Assembly (NCBI RefSeq): GCF_900116615.1
Contig: NZ_FPBF01000006.1
Coordinates: 62,001 to 126,000, forward strand
Direction: 5' to 3'
Length of the DNA: 64,000 nt
Origin: Algoriphagus locisalis
GTDB lineage: Bacteria > Bacteroidota > Bacteroidia > Cytophagales > Cyclobacteriaceae
Shown here: piece by piece, positions 44,407-54,809 of the stretch
Layout of the letters: each line of letters opens with the position of its first letter
Numbering within the stretch: position 1 is the stretch's first letter
The notes under the pieces: model-generated
Database searches by the model: none
Told to the model about the DNA's origin: nothing
Seen by the model: the letters and a program-made list of their open reading frames with translations, nothing else
Position numbers and translations under genes: made by a program

Positions 44407-46221
44407 CTAGGTGATGTAAACTGTTTCCTCAGGGTATTTGTATCGTTGCTCTCCTATTCTACGGACTATTGCGATTAGAATGGTTAATGTACCTACTCTA
44501 CCGATTAGCATGATTGCCATCAGCACTAATTTGCTTCCTAAACTCAATTGTGATGTGATTCCCAATGTAAGTCCGACTGTGGAAAAGGCACTAAACACCT
44601 CAAAAGCGACATCAATCAGGGGAAGCTCTGGGTCAAAAATCATCAGGAGAAACACGCCTAAACCCATGACCAGGACTGAAAGGGAAATCACTGCAAATGC
44701 TTTTTTCAGAGTCTCATTGGATACCTGTCGCCTAAATACTTCTACTCGGGTTTTTCCTGAAGCTATGCTAAATGTGTTAAGCATCGCCACTGCGAAGGTG
44801 CTGGTTTTTAGTCCTCCTCCTGTAGATCCGGGCGATGCTCCTATCCACATCAGAAAAAGATAAACCAAAGCGGTAGGAACAGCTAATTCCCGCATATCGA
44901 CGGTGTTGAAACCTGCTGTTCTTGGTGTCACTGCTCCAAAAATTGTGGTAACGAATTTACCATAGGGGCTAAGTCCTTTCAAGGTATGATCCTGCTCTGA
45001 GATTGCATAGACGACCATTCCTATGACCAAGAGAATGCCGGTCGTATAGACGACCAGTCTCGTGTTGACACTGGAAACTCGTGGTGTATGACGGTATTTT
45101 TCTATCCCGAGCATGTTTTTCATAAAACCTACTATCAGATGTTTGACATAGGAATAGTAGTTCAACACCACGGGGAATCCGATTCCTCCCAAAATTATAG
45201 CTAAGGAAATGGCCAAATGCATATTATAAGCTTCTCGGAAACCGGTCTCATATAATCCATTGCTTAGTGTAGAGAAACCGGCGTTACAAAAAGCTGAAAT
45301 AGCATGGAAAAGCGAAAAGAACAGCTGATCTCCCCGGCCTGAAAACTGTGCTGAATCAGTAAAATGATAAATGAGGAAAGCACAAATGCCTTCCACCAAA
45401 ACTGTAAAAGAGATGATCTTAAATAAGGTAGTATAAATCTCGTTTACATTGTTCTCATTGATGTAATCCCGGATGAAAAGTCTGTTTTCTATAGAGTAAC
45501 TCCCCTTGAAAAAGAAACCAAAGAAACTGGTGAAAACCATGATGCCAAGCCCACCAATTTGGAACAAAATCATAATCACTACCTGGCCAAAGTAGGTAAA
45601 GTCCTTTGCCGTGTCCAAAACAATCAAGCCCGTCACGCAGACTGCTGAGGTAGAGGTAAACAAGGCGTCTATGAAAGAAATATCTCGCGTAGTTGCTTCA
45701 GGAAGGCTGAGCAGACCGGCTCCAACGAGAATGAGTAAGATAAACGATAAAATAAAAACAAGAGAGGGACTAAGTTTCAGCTCATTCACTGTCAGGCTGA
45801 ATTTGCTCAGCTCTATGAAAAAGAGAATAATGACTAAAGCGTTGATTATATGGTAATGCGCAGAGAAATCAAGAATTAGTGCTGTGGTCTCATTTCCAAA
45901 GATATTCCAGCGAACTAGTGCTGTAAGCGTAAGAAGTATGGATAGCAGGATTTCAAGAATGACTCGTGCTAGGTAAATGGATTTTTCTACAAGCAATACC
46001 TTCACCAAGTAACCAATGCCGATCAGCATCAAACAAAAGTTGAAAAAGAAGGAAGTTGCCACTTGATCCTTTGGATCTATTGAATATCCCAAATGGAATA
46101 GTATTATCCCAAAAGCGAAGAAGCTGCTAAGCTGAACTACTTTTTCCTGAACCTTTACCACCTTTTTTAAAAAGATGATATTCCGATCTGGATTGGAAAA
46201 GATTTTCAGTTTGCGAATCAT
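44407..46221 (-). CDS. TrkH/KtrB-family potassium transport pore
   Basis: 604 residues with many membrane segments. Four selectivity loops can be traced: TSTSAVCVTGLIVLD, FHAISAFCNAGFSTLSNG, GAVTPRTAGFNTVDM and FEVFSAFSTVGLTLGIT. An extra N-terminal membrane region of about 170 residues makes it longer than canonical KtrB (about 450). It lies in ClC-trkH-trkA order on the minus strand. Confidence 0.93.
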   Translation of the reverse strand: MIRKLKIFSNPDRNIIFLKKVVKVQEKVVQLSSFFAFGIILFHLGYSIDPKDQVATSFFFNFCLMLIGIGYLVKVLLVEKSIYLARVILEILLSILLTLTALVRWNIFGNETTALILDFSAHYHIINALVIILFFIELSKFSLTVNELKLSPSLVFILSFILLILVGAGLLSLPEATTRDISFIDALFTSTSAVCVTGLIVLDTAKDFTYFGQVVIMILFQIGGLGIMVFTSFFGFFFKGSYSIENRLFIRDYINENNVNEIYTTLFKIISFTVLVEGICAFLIYHFTDSAQFSGRGDQLFFSLFHAISAFCNAGFSTLSNGLYETGFREAYNMHLAISLAIILGGIGFPVVLNYYSYVKHLIVGFMKNMLGIEKYRHTPRVSSVNTRLVVYTTGILLVIGMVVYAISEQDHTLKGLSPYGKFVTTIFGAVTPRTAGFNTVDMRELAVPTALVYLFLMWIGASPGSTGGGLKTSTFAVAMLNTFSIASGKTRVEVFRRQVSNETLKKAFAVISLSVLVMGLGVFLLMIFDPELPLIDVAFEVFSAFSTVGLTLGITSQLSLGSKLVLMAIMLIGRVGTLTILIAIVRRIGEQRYKYPEETVYIT

Positions 46222-46252
46222 GATTTGGAAAGAGGCTTGAAAGAAAACTCAA

Positions 46253-47542
46253 TCATTCTTTTGAAGACGTTCTTCGTGAAAAGTTAAAAATCCATTCAGC
46301 AGGATACAAATGGAATTTGCCATCTAAGTTTTGTGAGGAATAGATACTCGATTTGCCACTGAAAAGGTAGGCGATCAAGCAGGCAATTCCCAAAAATATC
46401 CCCGATTCGTATCCAAATAACTCCATTCCCATCACGGTACATGCCATGGGAGTATTAGTAGCTCCGGAGAAGACCCCGACAAAACCCATTCCCGCCATTA
46501 ATGCTAATGGAAGCGGAACCCAAGTTGCCAGCGCATTGCCCAATGTTGCCCCTGTGAAGAACAATGGTGTCACTTCTCCACCCTTAAATCCTGCTCCAAG
46601 CGTGAAACTGGTTAACCCGGTCTTTGCTAGCCAGTCATACCAAGGAAGCGGAGTCTCAAAAGCTTCCACTATCCTAGGAACGCCTAGCCCGATGTAGGTC
46701 GTACTGTCCGAAATATATACAAATGCAGCAATCAACAGTCCGCCTATGACCGGACGAAGGGGCGGATAGGAGATGTATTTAGAAAATTGATGAGAAAAAA
46801 AGTGGGTGCTTTGGGCAAATAACCTCCCTGAAAACCCGAAAGCAATTCCTGCAGGAATAATCCAGAGTAAGTTTACCAAAGTATGTGGAGGCACTAAATC
46901 TATAAAATAATGGGTATGGCCTACGGCAAAGAGTGATCCACAAACCCAATTTGCTACAAATGCAGTCCAGAAGGCTGGAAAGATCGATTTCCAACGGATT
47001 TGCCTGTGAAGCATCCACTCCAAAGCAAAGATTGCCCCGGCCAATGGTGTTCCGAATACAGAAGCAAATCCTCCGGCCACACCGGCGATTAGAATGATTC
47101 TACGATCTTCATCATTGAGGTGAAAATACTTGGTGAGCTGATCAGCAAGCGAGCCTCCCATTTGCACTGCAGTACCTTCCCGGCCTGCAGACCCACCGAA
47201 TAAATGTGTCAAAACAGTCCCTAGAAGCACCAAAGGAGTCATCCTGAGTGGAATAGGCTTTTCTGTTTTGTAGAGTTCATCCAGCAAAAGATTGTTTCCT
47301 TTCACAGAATTTTCCCCGAACCTGTAATAACTCCAACCTATGACAAAGCCGGCTATAGGCAGCAGTGCAATGATCCAAAGGTGAGATTCACGGTAATCCG
47401 TAGCCCAGTTTAAAGCAATTAAAAAAACAGCAGATGCAGACCCGGAAAGCAAGCCTACCAACAGGCCCAAAACGATCCAGAGTAATATATACCGAAAAAT
47501 AGAAGTGCTGTTCAAACTAGTTTTTTCAAATAGTTGGTCCAA
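46253..47542 (-). CDS. CLC-family anion channel/antiporter, CLC-F-like
   Basis: 429 residues, about 10-12 membrane helices. The second CLC motif is present as GSAGREGTAVQMGG with the gating Glu. The first motif GSGIP is absent; its place reads GNNLLLDELY, the pattern I associate with fluoride/proton antiporters (CLC-F). The third motif reads GGEVTPLFFTGATLG instead of GxFxP. So F- export is a good hypothesis. No fluoride riboswitch was seen upstream. Confidence 0.82.
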   Translation of the reverse strand: MDQLFEKTSLNSTSIFRYILLWIVLGLLVGLLSGSASAVFLIALNWATDYRESHLWIIALLPIAGFVIGWSYYRFGENSVKGNNLLLDELYKTEKPIPLRMTPLVLLGTVLTHLFGGSAGREGTAVQMGGSLADQLTKYFHLNDEDRRIILIAGVAGGFASVFGTPLAGAIFALEWMLHRQIRWKSIFPAFWTAFVANWVCGSLFAVGHTHYFIDLVPPHTLVNLLWIIPAGIAFGFSGRLFAQSTHFFSHQFSKYISYPPLRPVIGGLLIAAFVYISDSTTYIGLGVPRIVEAFETPLPWYDWLAKTGLTSFTLGAGFKGGEVTPLFFTGATLGNALATWVPLPLALMAGMGFVGVFSGATNTPMACTVMGMELFGYESGIFLGIACLIAYLFSGKSSIYSSQNLDGKFHLYPAEWIFNFSRRTSSKE

Positions 47543-47649
47543 ATTAGGAATAGAAATTGAATTTAATGAGGCTAGTATAAGCTTAAATCATTTAGAGCTA
47601 CCTAACTTATTGGTAAGTTTCGGGTTATCTAAATACAAAACACACAATT

Positions 47650-48543
47650 ATGCAAAATATTCTTATTTCCGGAGGTTCTGGTCTTATTGGCCACAAAATC
47701 ACCCAGCTGCTGGAACTGAAAGGGTATTCAGTTGCATGGCTTAGTAGATCAAAACAAAAACAAAAATCTTTTCTCTGGGATGTAGAAATGCAAACCATAG
47801 ATCCAGAAGCGATGGACTGGGCAGATGCAGTTATCCATTTAGCTGGGGCAGGAGTGGCAGAGCAGCGATGGACTGAAGAACGCAAAAAGGTCATCTTGGA
47901 TTCTCGTGTTCACAGCACTCGATTACTTTATGATGCCATTGAGAAAGCAACTGAAAAGCCCAGTGCTTTTATTTCCGCATCAGCCGTCGGCTATTATGGA
48001 TTTAATACAGGAACGTCCTTAATGGATGAGACAAATCAAGCCGGTTCTGACTTTTTAGCTCAGGTAGTAGTAGCCTGGGAAAATGAAGTGAAGAAAATGG
48101 AAGAATTGCATCTGCGTACGGTCATGCTGAGAATAGGAATTGTGCTGGATGCGAAAGGAGGAGCTCTAGGCGAAATGATGAAGCCTCCTATTGCTGCGCC
48201 CTTGGGAAACGGAGATCAGTGGATGAGTTGGATTGCGATTGAAGACTTGTCAAGAATGTTTGTTTTTGCATTAGAAAAGACCACACTTCAGGGAATATTC
48301 AATGCAGTAGGGCCGAATCCAGCGACCAATCAGCAATTGACTCAGGCAGCAGCAAAGGCAAAAGGGAAGCCTTATGTAGGAATAGGCGTTCCAGGATTTG
48401 TGCTAAAGATAGTCCTTGGCGAAATGGCTGCAATGGTTCTTGGTGGTAATCGGGTTTCATCCCAAAAAATCCAGAAAGCAGGATTTGATTTTGAATGTCC
48501 AGCGTTGGTGCCTGCGCTAAAGCATATTTACAACCAGAGTTAA
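47650..48543 (+). CDS. TIGR01777-type NAD(P)-dependent epimerase/oxidoreductase
   Basis: 297 residues. N-terminal GGSGLIGHKITQLLE and a C-terminal domain (about 245-297, with KIVLGEMAAMVLGGNRV) match the YfcH/TIGR01777 family of extended SDR proteins. The substrate is unknown. It is convergent with the ABC-MutS gene, 13 bp apart. Confidence 0.88.
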   Translation: MQNILISGGSGLIGHKITQLLELKGYSVAWLSRSKQKQKSFLWDVEMQTIDPEAMDWADAVIHLAGAGVAEQRWTEERKKVILDSRVHSTRLLYDAIEKATEKPSAFISASAVGYYGFNTGTSLMDETNQAGSDFLAQVVVAWENEVKKMEELHLRTVMLRIGIVLDAKGGALGEMMKPPIAAPLGNGDQWMSWIAIEDLSRMFVFALEKTTLQGIFNAVGPNPATNQQLTQAAAKAKGKPYVGIGVPGFVLKIVLGEMAAMVLGGNRVSSQKIQKAGFDFECPALVPALKHIYNQS

Positions 48544-48556
48544 TCTTATTTTATCT

Positions 48557-50590
48557 TTAACTCAGCGGTTTCTCTGTCTTCCCTTTTAGCAATTCCAGTA
48601 TTTGCTCTTTAATAACGATATGTAGCCCTAGACTATCTTTTGAAACCCCATCTACTAGTTTGTATGTGTACATAGCTTCGTCATTTACCACCCTCACGTC
48701 AAAGCATTTGAAGAAAATATTTTTTTGTTTTTCTAATTCTTGTGCAATCTCCATGATGTGGGAAGATATGATATACACACTTCCGGGCTGTTGAGCGATA
48801 GCAGAAATAATCATAGAAGAAGCGGCAGAAGCATCTTTTACATTGGTGCCACGAAACAGCTCATCAAATATCACCACCAGATTTTTATCATTTTTGATCT
48901 CGCTCGCTACCTCCTTCACTCTTTTTACTTCACTGTAAAAGTGACTTAGTCCATGATTAATATTATCAGAAAGATTAATCGTGGTGAAAAGCCCATCGAA
49001 AATACTCGTTTTCATTTTCGTCGCAGGGACAGGAAATCCAAGATGAGCAAGATAAACGCCGAGTCCGAAAGCTTTGAGAAAGGTTGATTTGCCGGACATG
49101 TTTGCCCCGGTGAGAAAACACATATTTGCAGTCGCTGAAATGGAAAAGTCATTGCCTACAGCTTTTTCCAGCTTTGGATGAAATAACCCTTCAATGTCTA
49201 TTAGAGAATCCTGAGTGTACTCGTATTCAGGGAAAGAGAGATTTAGCTTTCTACTAGTCTGAGCTACAGCATTGTAAGCATCAAATTCATAAAAGCGTTC
49301 GAGCAACCAGAGGAGTGGTTCCTTTCCCTTTTTTCTCAAAATAGAGTCAAACTCTGAAAAGTGGAGATAAAGCGGCTTTTGGCCATAGTTATCCATAAAG
49401 TCCCGCAAATTGCTACTGTTTAATTGCTCTTGAATCTGATAAGCAAGATCTGATAGGTACCAAGTATCGCTTAGATCTTGAATTTTATTCGCTAGTTGTA
49501 GCGCAGATTTCAAAAAGTCAAAAACATGCTGAATCCCAGTTTCTTGGATGTAATAGTTGTTTGAGGTGCGGTACTTGTTTTTGAGATAGATAGACAAAGA
49601 ACTGTAATAGGAAGAAGGAGATACTGCTATGCCAGACTCCAGGTAAACAGCGATAAAATCAAGTTGCTTTCTGTCAAGATTTAATAGGAATTCATTTGAC
49701 TGAAAGAATTTAATTGATTCCTGTCTGTTTTGAAGAATGGTTTTACTCTTCGTAGGACTTCCAAACAACTTTTCTAAGTATGCTTTGCCCCCTTTAGATG
49801 CTGGCTTTTCAAATAACGCCAGAAGGCTTTCCTCATCGTAATTGATGGATAGACCCAAATCTTTAGAGGTTTGTTTATCGATAATAAAGTGCTCATCTAC
49901 AGTCTCTTCCTGCGTTTCGGATTTTTCAGGAGGCAGGTAATTATATTCGACAAGCTGCTTTCTATCTTGGATAGGCTTTAGTGCACCTCCAGTCAGCAGG
50001 AACGTTTTGTCGCTCACATCCATCAGATTCACATAGTCGTGATCCGTGATGATGATGCCTTTTTCTTGCTTATGTAAATCAATGAGGCCCTTTATGTCAG
50101 CTCTATAAAGTGGTTCTACTTGGGAAAAGGGCTCGTCCAGTAAGGCAAAGGCTGTTGGAAGATTAAGTATTAGAAGTACTTGAAGGTATCGTTTCTCACC
50201 ACCAGAAAGTGCAGATATTTTTTTATTGAGAAGGGGCGCTATTCGAGCATTAGTAGCTACTGAATTTCTTTTGCTTTCGTCAGAAATATAGATTCGAATA
50301 ACAGAGGAAACAGTTAAGCCATTTGGCAAGAAATTTCCTTGGGGTAGATAGGCTATTTTATCTCCATCCGAAAATGCTTTTTCCAGAAATTCACCATTTA
50401 TCCTAATGCTTTTATTTTCCGCATCTAAGGACCCAAATATTATTTGAAGCAGCGTTGATTTGCCTGTTCCATTTCTCCCTAAGATACCGATAACCTCCCC
50501 TATTGAGCATTTGAGGTAGATATCTTTGAGCAAGTGTTTCTGTCCAAAGGATTTGATCAGACTATCTACTTCTAAGATTTGATGAGCCAT
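48557..50590 (-). CDS. ABC ATPase fused to a MutS core/ATPase domain
   Basis: 677 residues with two complete ABC-class ATPases. The N-terminal ABC domain (1-~215) has Walker A GRNGTGKST at 38-46, signature LSGGE at 128-132, Walker B with D152/E153 and H-loop H184, as in transporter ATPases. Residues ~240-450 resemble the MutS lever/core, and ~480-670 is MutS domain V with TGANMSGKST near 492-501, VIFDELFRGTN near 573 and SSHIMEIAQ. The mismatch-recognition domain is absent. The 93-residue membrane protein 7 bp upstream may be its partner. I know of no characterised protein of this design. Confidence 0.9.
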   Translation of the reverse strand: MAHQILEVDSLIKSFGQKHLLKDIYLKCSIGEVIGILGRNGTGKSTLLQIIFGSLDAENKSIRINGEFLEKAFSDGDKIAYLPQGNFLPNGLTVSSVIRIYISDESKRNSVATNARIAPLLNKKISALSGGEKRYLQVLLILNLPTAFALLDEPFSQVEPLYRADIKGLIDLHKQEKGIIITDHDYVNLMDVSDKTFLLTGGALKPIQDRKQLVEYNYLPPEKSETQEETVDEHFIIDKQTSKDLGLSINYDEESLLALFEKPASKGGKAYLEKLFGSPTKSKTILQNRQESIKFFQSNEFLLNLDRKQLDFIAVYLESGIAVSPSSYYSSLSIYLKNKYRTSNNYYIQETGIQHVFDFLKSALQLANKIQDLSDTWYLSDLAYQIQEQLNSSNLRDFMDNYGQKPLYLHFSEFDSILRKKGKEPLLWLLERFYEFDAYNAVAQTSRKLNLSFPEYEYTQDSLIDIEGLFHPKLEKAVGNDFSISATANMCFLTGANMSGKSTFLKAFGLGVYLAHLGFPVPATKMKTSIFDGLFTTINLSDNINHGLSHFYSEVKRVKEVASEIKNDKNLVVIFDELFRGTNVKDASAASSMIISAIAQQPGSVYIISSHIMEIAQELEKQKNIFFKCFDVRVVNDEAMYTYKLVDGVSKDSLGLHIVIKEQILELLKGKTEKPLS

Positions 50591-50596
50591 AAGCGA

Positions 50597-50878
50597 TTAA
50601 AAAATGAGAAAATAGATGAGGGCGATTGCTGCATTCACTCCGAAGGTAAAGCCGACCAGTTTTATCTTGTCAAAGCCTAAATTGTAATAGAAGAAATACT
50701 GCTGAGCATACCTTACTTCATAGAGATAAAGTGCGAGTAGGTATCCAACCGTCAATAATGTTAGGAAAAAGTAAACCCCAAAATTACCACCTTGAGAATA
50801 AGCTAATGATGCGACTGCAACAGAAAAGGGAATGTTGAAACTGCTGATTTGTCTATAGTACAATAATAGACTGCTCAT
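50597..50878 (-). CDS. small multi-pass membrane protein beside ABC-MutS
   Basis: 93 residues with three hydrophobic stretches (FNIPFSVAVASLAY, VYFFLTLLTVGYLLALYLY and VGFTFGVNAAIALIYFLIF). It is translated 7 bp before the ABC-MutS gene, so it is likely the membrane partner of that ATPase, or regulates it. The family is not recognised and it is much smaller than a normal ABC permease. Confidence 0.8.
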   Translation of the reverse strand: MSSLLLYYRQISSFNIPFSVAVASLAYSQGGNFGVYFFLTLLTVGYLLALYLYEVRYAQQYFFYYNLGFDKIKLVGFTFGVNAAIALIYFLIF

Positions 50879-50914
50879 GAGATGCTACTTTTGGTGTATA
50901 AATGACCAAAATCT

Positions 50915-51286
50915 CTACTTTTCATAGAGAAGAATATTTAATTCCTTAACCTTGGAAAGGTGCTTATCAGCAGTCATTAAAGGAATATTTAGGTAAAACG
51001 CAGTTGCTGCGATTATTGCATCAGGAAGCTTGATTCTATATGATTTTCTTAATTTTACCACGTGCTTTTTGATGGAGGAATTAAGGTCAATAATTGTAGT
51101 ATCATCCAATAAATTTTCCACGATTTTTAATCCTTCAGGCGTTAAGCCATCATATCCCAGTAATTCAAGTTCAGTTATAAATGAAACAAAAACGGTTTTT
51201 TTACTCAAAAAATCTGCAACTATCGGGTCTCCTGAAAGTAAATAGAGAATAATGTTGGTGTCGAGAAGTAGATTATTTCCATTCAT
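50915..51286 (-). CDS. vapC: VapC-type PIN-domain toxin
   Basis: 123 residues. The PIN acidic residues are in LLDTNIILYLLSG, ITELELLGYD, KLPDAIIAATAF and TADKHL. A ribonuclease toxin with a Mg2+-dependent active site; RNA target unknown. It starts inside the last 14 bases of the antitoxin gene. Confidence 0.92.
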   Translation of the reverse strand: MNGNNLLLDTNIILYLLSGDPIVADFLSKKTVFVSFITELELLGYDGLTPEGLKIVENLLDDTTIIDLNSSIKKHVVKLRKSYRIKLPDAIIAATAFYLNIPLMTADKHLSKVKELNILLYEK

Positions 51287-51437
51287 CTCTCAAAGCCTTT
51301 TGGATGACTTGAGGGTCTTCTTTTAAATTTAGCGCTCCGCAATATTTTTGAGCATCAAAGTTTTTTTTGATTTTTACTCTGGATAGTGCTTTTTCTACCA
51401 TTCTTTTATCAGACCCCTTTTTGATTACCGTAATCAT
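51273..51437 (-). CDS. vapB: VapB-type antitoxin (small)
   Basis: 54 residues, MITVIKKGSDKRMVEKALSR at the start, DAQKYCGALNLKEDPQVIQK in the middle and ALRDEWK at the end. The YCG...L..DP..IQ...RDEW pattern is the Bacteroidota VapB-like family that accompanies PIN toxins. It overlaps vapC by 14 nt. Confidence 0.85.
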   Translation of the reverse strand: MITVIKKGSDKRMVEKALSRVKIKKNFDAQKYCGALNLKEDPQVIQKALRDEWK

Positions 51438-51482
51438 AATTTATGCTTTTCTTGATTGAACGAATAAGATGTCAATTTGATT

Positions 51483-51656
51483 TCAAATCCTTTTCCCCCT
51501 ACCGATCAAAAACCAAAGGATGGTGCCAATCAATGGAAGTAATACTACGATGATTACCCAGATCAATTTATCGTTGTCATTGGCAAAATTGCTGGTGACC
51601 ACGTCGTAAATCGTGAACGCATAAATAGCGAAACCTATAATCCCAAGTCCAAACAT
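51483..51656 (-). CDS. PLDc_N-type membrane peptide, copy 3 (short)
   Basis: 57 residues read from ATG at 51656 to TGA at 51483-51485. Two membrane segments (IIGFAIYAFTIYDVV and LIWVIIVVLLPLIGTILWFL) and a final IGRGKRI match the PLDc_N pattern of its upstream neighbours. It starts one base after the stop of copy 2. Function unknown. Confidence 0.7.
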   Translation of the reverse strand: MFGLGIIGFAIYAFTIYDVVTSNFANDNDKLIWVIIVVLLPLIGTILWFLIGRGKRI

Positions 51657-51657
51657 A

Positions 51658-51891
51658 TCAAGAGCTGTAAGTCGTTTTGGTACTTTTTCCCATCGCTAAG
51701 TAAACGATTGGGCCAATACCCTGCGCAAATAGGAGAATCACAATCCAGATGATTTTCATATTGGGATCTTTGAATTCTGAGCGGAGAATATCCACCAGGC
51801 AGTAAATCCAAAATATGGTATAAAGAATACCAAAGAGGAGAAAAAATATGAGTGAGGCACCGCCAATGTTTTGAATGAAAGAAAGAGTCAT
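51658..51891 (-). CDS. PLDc_N-type membrane peptide, copy 2
   Basis: 77 residues with two hydrophobic segments. FFLLFGILYTIFWIYCLVDI and IIWIVILLFAQGIGPIVYLA with the GPIVYL turn are the PLDc_N hallmark, the membrane-anchor domain otherwise found in phospholipase D-like proteins. No PLD catalytic domain is attached. It is 5 bp after copy 1. Confidence 0.78.
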   Translation of the reverse strand: MTLSFIQNIGGASLIFFLLFGILYTIFWIYCLVDILRSEFKDPNMKIIWIVILLFAQGIGPIVYLAMGKSTKTTYSS

Positions 51892-51896
51892 TTTTG

Positions 51897-52160
51897 TTAG
51901 AAATTGTTTTGTTTAGAAAATGAAGGATTAAATCTACGCCGATCTTTTCTCAGGCTCCTGGCCATGGCGAGATACAAAAATGTGCCGAAACCTGGCGCGA
52001 GTAAAATAACTAAAACCCACATGAACTTGCTATGGGCTGCCCTAAATTCAGCTCCTGTAGCATCAAATAGCGCATAAGCCCAAAATCCTAAATAAACCAC
52101 AGATAGTAGGAACGAAAATTGCCAGATGAGTTGTCCGTCTCCAGGTGCTATTAAATCCAT
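51897..52160 (-). CDS. PLDc_N-type membrane peptide, copy 1
   Basis: 87 residues. Two membrane segments: IWQFSFLLSVVYLGFWAYAL and FMWVLVILLAPGFGTFLYLAM; the C-terminus is basic (RSLRKDRRRFNPSF). Same arrangement as copies 2 and 3. A run of three such genes in one operon is a modest oddity. Confidence 0.78.
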   Translation of the reverse strand: MDLIAPGDGQLIWQFSFLLSVVYLGFWAYALFDATGAEFRAAHSKFMWVLVILLAPGFGTFLYLAMARSLRKDRRRFNPSFSKQNNF

Positions 52161-52253
52161 GTGTATTCTTCAATTATTTTAACCATTGAACCAAAATAGC
52201 TTTTTTTATGGACTCGAAATAAGAATTTAGCTAAAAGTTAACCCCCAATCTCT

Positions 52254-54809
52254 ATGAAAAAAAATCTGCTCTCGCTGATTTTATCCTTTTTTGCGCTAGC
52301 TAGTTATGCTCAAGTTGATCTAAGCTACTACCTGCCCACCGGATATACCTATGATGAATCCATCCCAACTCCGAAGGAGGTTTTGGGATATGAAGTGGGA
52401 GAATGGCATGTAAGCCATGATCAATTGGTCATGTATATGAAGGCTGTGGCGGAAGCTTCTGACCGGGTGACTTTCGAGGAAACAGGCAGAACCTATGAGA
52501 AAAGACCGCAGGTACTTTTGACAATTACGTCGCCTTCTAACCTTGGTAAAATCGATCAAATCAAAACAGATCGCAAAAAACTTAGAGATGCTGGAGCGTC
52601 AGCAGATATAGAGAAGATGCCTGTGGTGATGTTTATGGGCTATTCTGTTCATGGAAATGAACCTAGCGGTGCCAATGCAGCTCTTTTGGCAGCCTATCAT
52701 TTTGCGGCAGCAAAGGAAATAGCAGGTGATCTTGAAAATATGGTTTTGCTGCTTGATCCGGCTATCAATCCAGATGGATTGAATCGGTTTGCTTCCTGGG
52801 TAAATACCCACAAGTCGTATAATATGAATGGTGATCCAAACAATGTGGAATTCAGCGAAGCTTGGCCGCGAGGAAGAACGAACCATTATTGGTTTGATCT
52901 GAACAGAGATTGGCTTCCGGTACAGCATCCAGAATCGAGGAATAGGGTTCGTGTTTTCCAAGATTGGCTTCCAAACATTCATTTGGATTTTCACGAGATG
53001 GGAACGAACAGCACGTTCTTTTTCCAGCCAGGCGTACCGGCACGAATGCACCCTCTGACTCCTGAGAAGAATTTTGAATTGACGGAAAAAATAGGAAAGT
53101 ACCATGCGAAAGCCTTGGATCAAATAGGTTCTCTGTATTTCAATCAGGAGAATTACGATGATTACTATTATGGAAAAGGCTCCACCTATCCGGACGTACA
53201 AGGTTCTATTGGAATCCTGTTTGAACAAGCCAGCTCAAGAGGTCACCTTCAGGAAAGTGTGAATGGAATGCTCAGCTTTCCTTTTACCATCAGAAATCAA
53301 TTCACTGCAAACCTGTCATCGTTTCAGGCTGCCAAAGAAATGCGTGAGGAGTTGAATCAATTCATGAAGGATTTCTATCAGGACATTCAAAAAGAGGTAG
53401 ATGCTGATTCGAATAAGGCATACATTTTTGGAAGCTCGGGAGACGATGCTCGAAGCTATCATTTGGCAGATTTGATCCTACAGCATGATATAAAAGTATT
53501 TAGCCTGAATGACGATATTACTGTAAATGGAAAGGATTTCGATAAAGAAAACTCCTACATCGTACCGGCAGATCAGCCGCAATACAGACTGATCAAAGCG
53601 ATGTTTGAAACCCGCAATACGTTCAAAGACAGCTTGTTCTATGATATTTCTGCCTGGACTTATCCTATGGCTTTCAACTTGGATTACATGGCGTTGAATA
53701 GTCAGATTTTGAACTTGGCATCTGTCAATGAAATCACCAAAAACTCTATTGCTTTAACGCCAGGTAACGTAATAGGTGAAGTGGGTGCATACCAGTATGC
53801 TATGGAATGGACGGATTACTACGCTCCAAAAGCAGCTTACAAATTGATGGATGCTGATTTCCAGGTGAGAGTAGCCACCGGAGAATTTTCCACTGCAGAT
53901 GGCAAAAAATTCGGACGAGGTACCTTATTGATTGGTAAAGGAGAAAGCGGATTGGACGATCAGGCTTTTTTTAATAAACTGGCTGAAATAGCTCAGAAAT
54001 CCACAGTAGATATCTATGGATTGACTACTGGCTATACTGAAGGTATGAATTTAGGTTCGCCAAATATGGCGGTTCTTGACAAACCAGAAATTGCACTATT
54101 GGTAGAAGGAGGAGTGGATAGTTACGAAGCTGGGGAAATCTGGCATTTGCTAGATCAGCGCTACGAAATGCCGATTACACTCTTGTCAATGGATAATATC
54201 GGGGGAAGCACGCTTGATAGATACAATGTAATTCTAATGCCTGACGGTAGATATAGTAGTCTAGGCAAATCCGGTGCAGCTACGCTAAAAGCCTGGGTTT
54301 CCGGTGGAGGGACTTTACTGGCTAAAGGAGGAGCCATCCAGTTTCTGGCACAGAATGAAGTGGGGAATTTTAAGTTTAGAGAGGCGGCTGAACCTGAGGC
54401 AGATTTGCAAAAAAGCTATGCAGACTATGAAAACGAAAGAGGTGCAAAAGTGACCGGAGGAGCGATTTTCAATGCTACCTTAGATCTCACGCATCCCATT
54501 GGGTATGGTTACCTAGACGCTGATATTCACACGTTCAGAAATGATAACTTGTTTCTGGAACCTTCCGAAAATCCCTACGCTAACCCACTGATTTACACAG
54601 ATCAGCCATTAGCGTCTGGTTACCTTCATCCTTCCAATCTTCCAGGAATTCAAAATGGATCTGTGATTCAGGTTTCTGGAGTAGGACGGGGAAGAATCGT
54701 CGCCTTTGCAGATAATATGAATTTCAGAGCATTCTGGTTCGGAACAAACAAGCTTTATATGAACGCCATCTTCTTTGGTCAGGTCATACAAAGCGGAACA
54801 ACACGATAA
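52254..54809 (+). CDS. secreted M14-family zinc carboxypeptidase-like protein
   Basis: 851 residues. Signal peptide ends near residue 19 (SYAQ). The M14 zinc site is GYSVHGNEPSGANAAL (His and Glu) and the following IHLDFHEMG (His). A long C-terminal domain of about 400 residues is beta-rich and may bind substrates, with GGGTLLAKGGAI. It is exported to the periplasm or outside and probably trims peptides or peptidoglycan fragments. A terminator follows. Confidence 0.9.
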   Translation: MKKNLLSLILSFFALASYAQVDLSYYLPTGYTYDESIPTPKEVLGYEVGEWHVSHDQLVMYMKAVAEASDRVTFEETGRTYEKRPQVLLTITSPSNLGKIDQIKTDRKKLRDAGASADIEKMPVVMFMGYSVHGNEPSGANAALLAAYHFAAAKEIAGDLENMVLLLDPAINPDGLNRFASWVNTHKSYNMNGDPNNVEFSEAWPRGRTNHYWFDLNRDWLPVQHPESRNRVRVFQDWLPNIHLDFHEMGTNSTFFFQPGVPARMHPLTPEKNFELTEKIGKYHAKALDQIGSLYFNQENYDDYYYGKGSTYPDVQGSIGILFEQASSRGHLQESVNGMLSFPFTIRNQFTANLSSFQAAKEMREELNQFMKDFYQDIQKEVDADSNKAYIFGSSGDDARSYHLADLILQHDIKVFSLNDDITVNGKDFDKENSYIVPADQPQYRLIKAMFETRNTFKDSLFYDISAWTYPMAFNLDYMALNSQILNLASVNEITKNSIALTPGNVIGEVGAYQYAMEWTDYYAPKAAYKLMDADFQVRVATGEFSTADGKKFGRGTLLIGKGESGLDDQAFFNKLAEIAQKSTVDIYGLTTGYTEGMNLGSPNMAVLDKPEIALLVEGGVDSYEAGEIWHLLDQRYEMPITLLSMDNIGGSTLDRYNVILMPDGRYSSLGKSGAATLKAWVSGGGTLLAKGGAIQFLAQNEVGNFKFREAAEPEADLQKSYADYENERGAKVTGGAIFNATLDLTHPIGYGYLDADIHTFRNDNLFLEPSENPYANPLIYTDQPLASGYLHPSNLPGIQNGSVIQVSGVGRGRIVAFADNMNFRAFWFGTNKLYMNAIFFGQVIQSGTTR

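Follow-up and report, generated by a model that had tools for sequence, protein, structure and literature searches.

A 677-residue protein encoded on the minus strand of the window (the whole 64,000-nucleotide stretch of Algoriphagus locisalis DNA that was analysed) combines a complete ABC ATPase and a MutS core with its own ATPase in a single chain, and its gene lies directly behind that of a small membrane protein. The best explanation for this arrangement, put forward tentatively, is a putative minimal ABC transporter or extruder carrying a tethered MutS motor that does not act on DNA. The observation as a whole, an ABC ATPase and MutS domains III and V in one gene with a small membrane protein upstream, had been made in a first-pass annotation of the sequence and was confirmed. 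The description of the upstream product as a 93-residue multi-pass membrane protein was also correct, with three helices, except that the gap between the two genes amounts to 6 bp (50591-50596) and not to 7.

Domain composition of the ABC-MutS fusion

The features of the two genes are as follows:

50597..50878, minus strand, 93-residue three-helix membrane protein, partner of the ABC module (open reading frame, adjacency, hydropathy)
50657..50701, minus strand, conserved segment between helices 2 and 3 of the small protein, residues 60-74, QYFFYYNLGFDKIKL, candidate coupling segment (conservation; putative role)
48557..50590, minus strand, gene of the 677-residue ABC-MutS fusion (open reading frame and Pfam)
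49925..50590, minus strand, ABC ATPase module, residues 1-222 (PF00005; the end matches the end of the ABC-only genes at loci L058 and L059)
50453..50479, minus strand, ABC Walker A, residues 38-46 (motif)
50195..50209, minus strand, ABC signature LSGGE, residues 128-132 (motif)
50111..50152, minus strand, ABC Walker B region, residues 147-160 (motif)
49886..49924, minus strand, linker, residues 223-235 (seam at residue 223; stop at the equivalent codon in two ABC-only relatives)
49301..49885, minus strand, MutS domain III-like core, about residues 236-430 (Pfam and profile alignment)
48560..49300, minus strand, MutS domain V ATPase region, about residues 431-677 (PF00488)
49082..49108, minus strand, MutS Walker A GANMSGKST, residues 495-503 (motif)
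48842..48871, minus strand, MutS Walker B IFDELFRGTN, residues 574-583 (motif)
48746..48772, minus strand, MutS His switch IISSHIMEI, residues 607-615 (motif)

Pfam assigned ABC_tran (PF00005) to residues 21-155 with an E-value of 2e-24 and 87.2 bits (cut-off 25) and MutS_V (PF00488) to residues 492-659 with an E-value of 1.7e-31 and 110.1 bits (cut-off 30.2); MutS_III at residues 243-312 stayed under its cut-off (19.4 vs 34.1 bits). The ABC half comprises the complete set of an ABC transporter ATPase, i.e. Walker A, Q-loop, LSGGE, Walker B and H-loop. With the motifs of both halves intact, the presence of two complete ABC-class ATPases in one chain was verified.

When 14 relatives of the MutS half were combined into a profile, this aligned with a solved bacterial MutS (5x9w) in two blocks, chain residues 267-348 and 435-772, so that the core domain III and domain V are both present in the fusion. 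Between the aligned blocks 5x9w contains 86 residues compared to 10 in the profile; the clamp of bacterial MutS1 covers residues 444-503 in the numbering of PMC12292046. Among the Pfam families listed (25 of 27), the 677-residue protein showed no match to MutS_I, MutS_II, MutS_IV or Smr. The 14 relatives gave a consistent picture, with MutS_V in all 14, MutS_III in 13 and MutS_I, II or IV in none at an E-value of 0.001. Based on this domain pattern, the MutS half comprises core and ATPase but neither a domain for reading mismatches nor a recognisable clamp, and the earlier statement that no mismatch-recognition domain is present holds, as far as such domains can be recognised by Pfam, for the fusion and its 14 relatives. 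A structure model of the fusion, computed from an alignment of six rows, reached a mean pLDDT of 35.6, too low for a usable structure.

Distribution and conservation of the fused form

Full-length fusions were found in 2 of 40 genomes of the genus sample and in 6 of 295 genomes of the family sample, the source genome counted in both, and the E-values in the family-sample search ranged from 0 to 5.6e-187. The only one among the 395 genomes of the phylum sample was the source genome itself. The named fused relatives belong to Algoriphagus yeomjeoni (85% identity), A. winogradskyi (86%) and Cyclobacterium qasimii (56%); in the family sample the fused loci cover four genus codes with 46-57% identity among them.

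After removal of duplicates, seven distinct fused loci could be read. Since full-length fusions occur at all of these, a sequencing or assembly error at the join of the ABC and MutS parts, which had been named as a possible refutation, is ruled out. The second such point, close homologues with the two domains in separate genes, applies in part: unfused homologues do exist, but the fusion is nevertheless real and conserved. The first-pass annotation knew of no characterised example, and likewise no description of an ABC-MutS fusion was found in one open-licence literature library.

The catalytic motifs of both halves (Walker A, signature-type motif, Walker B and His) are intact in all seven fused proteins, one of which has a conservative substitution at the final position of Walker A. 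Ratios of dN/dS were calculated (NG86) for the fusion against A. yeomjeoni and A. winogradskyi, respectively, and amounted to 0.107 and 0.087 for the ABC half, 0.152 and 0.109 for MutS III, and 0.055 and 0.049 for MutS V; the 13-residue linker reached 0.182 and 0.307. One pair of the small protein gave a value of 0.138; the pairs with C. qasimii and one small-protein pair yielded no dS. Both halves of the fusion are under purifying selection.

A phage origin was considered and rejected: with 24.5% identity, the best phage match extended over 66% of the MutS half, and no phage match reached 80% coverage. The same holds true for a plasmid origin, as no plasmid match to the whole 677-residue protein was obtained at an E-value of 1e-40.

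The small membrane protein and the base cassette

The base cassette consists of a small membrane protein with a segment of the type YFYxNxGxSKxxL, followed by an ABC ATPase of about 220 residues, and occurs in several Bacteroidota families. For all ABC loci fetched at cassette-level similarity, a hydrophobic open reading frame of 72-116 residues was found directly upstream (34 of 34 rows, corresponding to 33 of 33 distinct loci, 26 ABC-only and 7 fused, since L058 and L075 are one place); the rule applied was same strand, at most 140 residues, mean hydropathy above 0.3 and a distance within 60 bases, so that a wrong frame is possible. At many cassette loci the small frame overlaps the ABC start by 4 bases.

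Alignment of 24 small proteins showed an invariant Asn66 and nearly invariant Gly68 and Leu74. A profile built from them detected 30 places, distributed over 29 of 296 phylum genomes; several genomes among these 29 had supplied profile rows and therefore match by construction. At 29 of these 30 places a related ABC gene adjoins, 28 of them determined by script and one being the locus of the window itself, for which the fetched stretch was too short for the script. The exception (L145) is a partial match with an E-value of 4.2e-4. In this check on co-occurrence across Bacteroidota, which had been proposed earlier, the small protein goes with the ABC half.

The hydropathy scan of 34 small proteins resulted in three segments for 26, two for six and four for two of them. 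In the low-confidence structure model (mean pLDDT 66.6), helices comprise residues 2-28, 33-58 and 68-92. According to the positive-inside rule, the conserved segment would face the cytoplasm, which is the side of the ABC module. The 93-residue protein matched no family in Pfam or NCBIfam, its relatives showed weak Pfam matches that agree on no family, and a Foldseek search of the model against the PDB returned nine matches up to an E-value of 10, none of them at 0.001. Since the partner matched no described transmembrane-domain family, the pair was not assigned to a described class of ABC transporters. With one ABC gene and one three-helix protein of about 90 residues, the base cassette may be among the smallest forms of ABC transporters.

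Likely gain and loss of the MutS half

In A. ratkowskyi and A. aquimarinus, the same locus with the same flanks carries the small protein and an ABC gene of 224-225 residues without the MutS half. Both ABC-only genes have their stop exactly at the codon that corresponds to residue 223 in the fusion. A MutS half split off to another place in these genomes was considered and rejected, because all four MutS matches in each of them (frames of about 600 and about 510 residues, one MutS1-like and one MutS2-like) are other paralogues. As these two species keep the cassette, the MutS half is dispensable there, and the cassette is maintained without it. More generally, the MutS motor is an add-on, since the pair of ABC ATPase and membrane protein exists without it.

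In the tree of ABC modules, the five Algoriphagus modules group together at 100/99, the fused C. qasimii module being next (99/96), and all fused modules together with the two ABC-only modules form a group with weak support (55/49). A clade of the fused ABC modules alone was rejected (p-AU 0.026); this group was fixed by architecture but tested after the tree had been seen. A sister relation of the two ABC-only modules was not rejected (p-AU 0.15). The most economical interpretation is a single fusion followed by a loss; a second loss or repeated fusion could account for the same trees. Since fused and ABC-only forms occur at one locus in one genus, a ready-made comparison with and without the second motor is available.

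Family placement of the MutS half and its unfused relatives

MutS proteins are usually read as DNA-repair factors. In the broad sense the MutS half belongs to this family, as it comprises a MutS_V domain with intact motifs; a closer assignment to one of the described types was not obtained. For MutS1 the scores were 143.5 vs 480 bits (NF003810) and 120.6 vs 641.7 bits (TIGR01070) with MutS_I and MutS_IV not detected, and for MutS2 96.8 vs 400 bits with Smr not detected among the families listed. KamC, the second-best NCBIfam model for the MutS half, scored 121.5 vs 300 bits, and was matched at an E-value of 1e-5 by all 14 relatives; no aminomutase gene was among the neighbours of the fusion scanned at 44407-54809.

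In a tree of 39 MutS-half rows and five paralogue rows, the fused proteins form one clade (96/93), inside which the unfused protein of L074 is placed at weak support, and this clade sits beside unfused proteins of the same family. For 10 of the 13 tree rows of family group f5, the unfused MutS core adjoins an amidohydrolase (dihydroorotase-like) gene (L028, L029, L030, L031, L033, L035, L036, L037, L039 and L100), the neighbours being identified by Pfam at two of the ten and by resemblance at the others. This pairing of MutS core and amidohydrolase is conserved.

The family sample showed unfused matches to the ABC half in 49 genomes and to the MutS core in 15. The two co-occur in two genomes (G468 and G500) compared to about 2.5 expected among the 289 genomes without fusion, a count that may miss some cases as at most four candidates were scored per genome. 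There is accordingly no sign of mutual dependence between the unfused halves.

The source genome contains five MutS_V proteins. Hydropathy indicated stretches long enough to span a membrane in two of them, three in the 597-residue protein (L004:244-2037) and two in the 505-residue protein (L005:532-2049), and no strong hydrophobic stretches in the MutS1 row (737 residues of a longer frame) or the MutS2 row. Counting the fusion, a link to the membrane is thus possible for three of the five MutS ATPases, in line with the best explanation, although hydropathy alone is no proof. Relatives of about 600 residues recur across the genus. Near the start of the window, domain V of an ordinary MutS1-like gene (875-residue frame) lies at 1580-2149 on the minus strand.

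MutS pairs in transporter operons

Another connection of MutS cores with ABC transporters was found in a third MutS clade, which consists of two subclades (support 99/95 and 100/99); the genomes G587, G137 and G429, from three families, contribute one member to either subclade. The two MutS genes adjoin and directly follow a protein of 770-818 residues with ABC2_membrane and ABC_transp_aux domains. An ABC ATPase precedes this permease in two of these operons, and in the third the contig begins there. The operons are located as follows:

L115:3075-9147, transporter operon with MutS pair
L098:312-6280, transporter operon with MutS pair
L099:92-5072, transporter operon with MutS pair

The conservation of two subclades across three families suggests that the two gene products form a heterodimer.

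The search with the permease resulted in eight places in 6 of 296 phylum genomes. Seven of these could be judged (at L164 the contig ends), one with a MutS pair (G137:C34) and six without MutS (L165-L168 and two in L169). The second operon MutS was found in 2 of 395 class genomes at an E-value of 1e-72, the second match (G1025) being a single gene without an ABC transporter beside it. With the fusion and the three operons, MutS cores meet ABC transporters in two separate arrangements, and the operon form is rare. Most transporters of the operon type occur without MutS. The cluster of L165, the one analysed by Pfam, contains a TonB-receptor plug and barrel, SusD, an ABC ATPase, a permease with ABC_transp_aux and an M16 peptidase; the clusters of L165-L168 without MutS look like a peptide-related transport system.

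Genomic neighbourhood

In the window, the two genes are surrounded by TrkH, a ClC channel, an epimerase-like protein with DUF1731, a PIN gene, three PLDc_N proteins and an M14 peptidase. The other genera examined have different neighbours, so that no conserved neighbouring gene points to a substrate. Among the neighbours scanned (44407-54809) there was no gene for an aminomutase or corrinoid enzyme, and the PIN gene is the only nuclease among the direct neighbours. This gene (50915-51437), whose start is overlapped by a frame of 54 residues, appears toxin-antitoxin-like. A similar PIN frame is found in A. yeomjeoni (L056); it is absent at this place in L057-L059 and was not treated as part of the system. 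Just upstream, three small PLDc_N membrane proteins are encoded in tandem (51483-52160), their called number varying among the Algoriphagus relatives. A PADLOC search with the fusion and its partner for described anti-phage defence systems gave ATPase-level matches only for the fusion (best 64.6 bits) and none for the partner.

Proposed mechanism and alternative explanations

According to the preferred reading of a small transporter or extruder with a tethered MutS motor, the 93-residue protein and the ABC half would represent the minimal core of the system. On ATP, two ABC modules would close and thereby move several three-helix partners; the conserved segment between helices 2 and 3 would provide the coupling, while adjacency and conservation are what is shown. 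In Cyclobacteriaceae, the MutS III and V module behind the short linker would dimerise in the cytoplasm and could serve as a second ATP-driven clamp or lever acting on the same cargo or on the ABC dimer. This cargo is probably not DNA, because the recognised DNA-contacting domains I and IV were not detected. Each half probably pairs with its own kind, since each has a complete motif set and its own unfused relatives. The transporter reading is favoured by the adjacency of the small-protein and ABC genes, the intact motifs and constraint of both halves, the MutS pairs in transporter operons, the hydrophobic stretches of two other MutS proteins and the known work of MutS proteins away from DNA. 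Against it stand the poor structure models of both proteins, the missing similarity of the partner to LptF/LptG, FtsX or PDB entries, the lack of a conserved neighbour indicating a substrate, the co-occurrence of the unfused halves at no more than the expected level, the two Algoriphagus species without a MutS half, and the six of seven operon-type transporters without MutS. The idea of a new two-engine membrane machine, as raised in the first-pass annotation, is retained with respect to the two ATPases, the small partner and the missing mismatch-reading domain, but not with respect to the two forms suggested for it, as a mixed ATPase pair found no support and a DNA clamp was weakened.

A wider proposal, speculative and somewhat unlikely as a whole, would be a class of membrane machines in which the clamp cycle of MutS is mechanically coupled to the cycle of an ABC transporter. 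The fused and the operon form would then be separate inventions using MutS as a cytoplasmic clamp that feeds or gates the transporter. If the MutS half serves a membrane transporter, a set of Bacteroidota MutS-type genes would have to be renamed, and it could be tested whether the MutS clamp is used away from DNA.

It is unlikely, if conceivable, that the fusion is a neutral joint product, in which the ABC-membrane cassette and the MutS core have separate functions and share no more than a common polypeptide. The separate unfused families of both halves, the lack of excess co-occurrence (2 of 15 MutS-core genomes compared to 49 of 289 overall) and the missing MutS half in two Algoriphagus species would agree with this. 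However, the fusion persists over 46-57% identity and four genus codes with both halves constrained, and a second MutS clade also adjoins ABC transporter genes.

A further explanation, judged to be quite improbable, would place the MutS half outside the transport stroke as an ATP-dependent regulator or assembly factor (reactivase-like, of the KamC type) of the ABC-membrane complex. While the rank of KamC (lysine 5,6-aminomutase reactivase) as second-best, below-cut-off NCBIfam model and the MutS-like assembly factors proposed in PMC9164220 point in this direction, the scanned neighbours include no aminomutase or corrinoid enzyme gene, and the similarity at the level of KamC is limited to the ATPase region common to MutS proteins in general.

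A membrane-anchored MutS-like clamp on DNA, acting in repair, anti-recombination, uptake or defence, would agree with membership in the MutS family, whose most familiar roles are on DNA. This form, one of the two suggested earlier, lost weight and is considered very unlikely, because domains I, II and IV were not detected and because the membrane partner accompanies the ABC half, also where MutS is absent. In addition, Smr was not detected, the only neighbouring nuclease is the PIN gene absent in three Algoriphagus relatives, and the PADLOC matches are at ATPase level only.

The other form, an exporter whose nucleotide-binding sandwich is built from one ABC and one MutS half, is highly improbable: both are ABC-class ATPases in one chain, but each has its own full motif set and unfused relatives, ABC-only cassettes occur at the same locus, and the MutS cores in operons come as MutS-MutS pairs.

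Comparison with known systems

MutS1, MutS2 and KamC-type proteins have MutS_V and domain III with all catalytic motifs in common with the MutS half, which differs from them by the fusion to an ABC domain and by the undetected domains I, II, IV and Smr. The unfused Bacteroidota MutS cores of about 440 residues show the same domain content and 29-45% identity to the MutS half, but lack the ABC domain and have other neighbours. A classification of ABC ATPases by Krishnan and co-workers, to which PMC9164220 refers, reportedly notes in its abstract MutS ATPases in secondary metabolism and may cover related architectures. Work of a MutS protein away from DNA is described for MutS2, which splits collided ribosomes (PMC12292046), and MutS-like proteins in operons of adenosylcobalamin enzymes are proposed as helpers in the assembly of metalloprotein complexes (PMC9164220).

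The transporters with an ABC-2 permease and ABC_transp_aux (GldG-like) resemble the fusion in having MutS cores from a related clade immediately after the permease (L098, L099 and L115). They differ in that their MutS genes are separate and paired, and the same type also occurs without MutS (L165-L169).

For the ABC half, LptB was the best-scoring transporter model, although the 110.1 bits obtained with this equivalog (TIGR04406) are below its cut-off of 240, and LptB chains are among the best PDB matches. Compared to the three-helix partner of 93 residues, the LptF and LptG proteins considered comprise 357 residues or more. No homology of the partner to LptF/LptG was found, and the pair was not assigned to LptB2FG: in four comparisons of the small-protein profile, of limited depth, with LptF/LptG and FtsX, hhalign gave a probability of 0.2% or less. 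A partner derived from LptF/LptG or FtsX by shortening thus received no support. The conserved segment of the small protein has the spacing E-x7-G-x-S, which LptF/LptG show too. The longer form E-x7-G-x-S-x3-[LIMV] was seen in 12 of the 34 small proteins, 18 of the 30 LptF/G rows and 5 of the 20 FtsX rows, which is only a lead, since the pattern was written after the sequences had been seen and hhalign was negative. A conserved Glu on the coupling helix that precedes transmembrane helix 3 of LptF and LptG is required for their cooperation with LptB (PMC5082905). The shared spacing could reflect a common coupling grammar and not homology.
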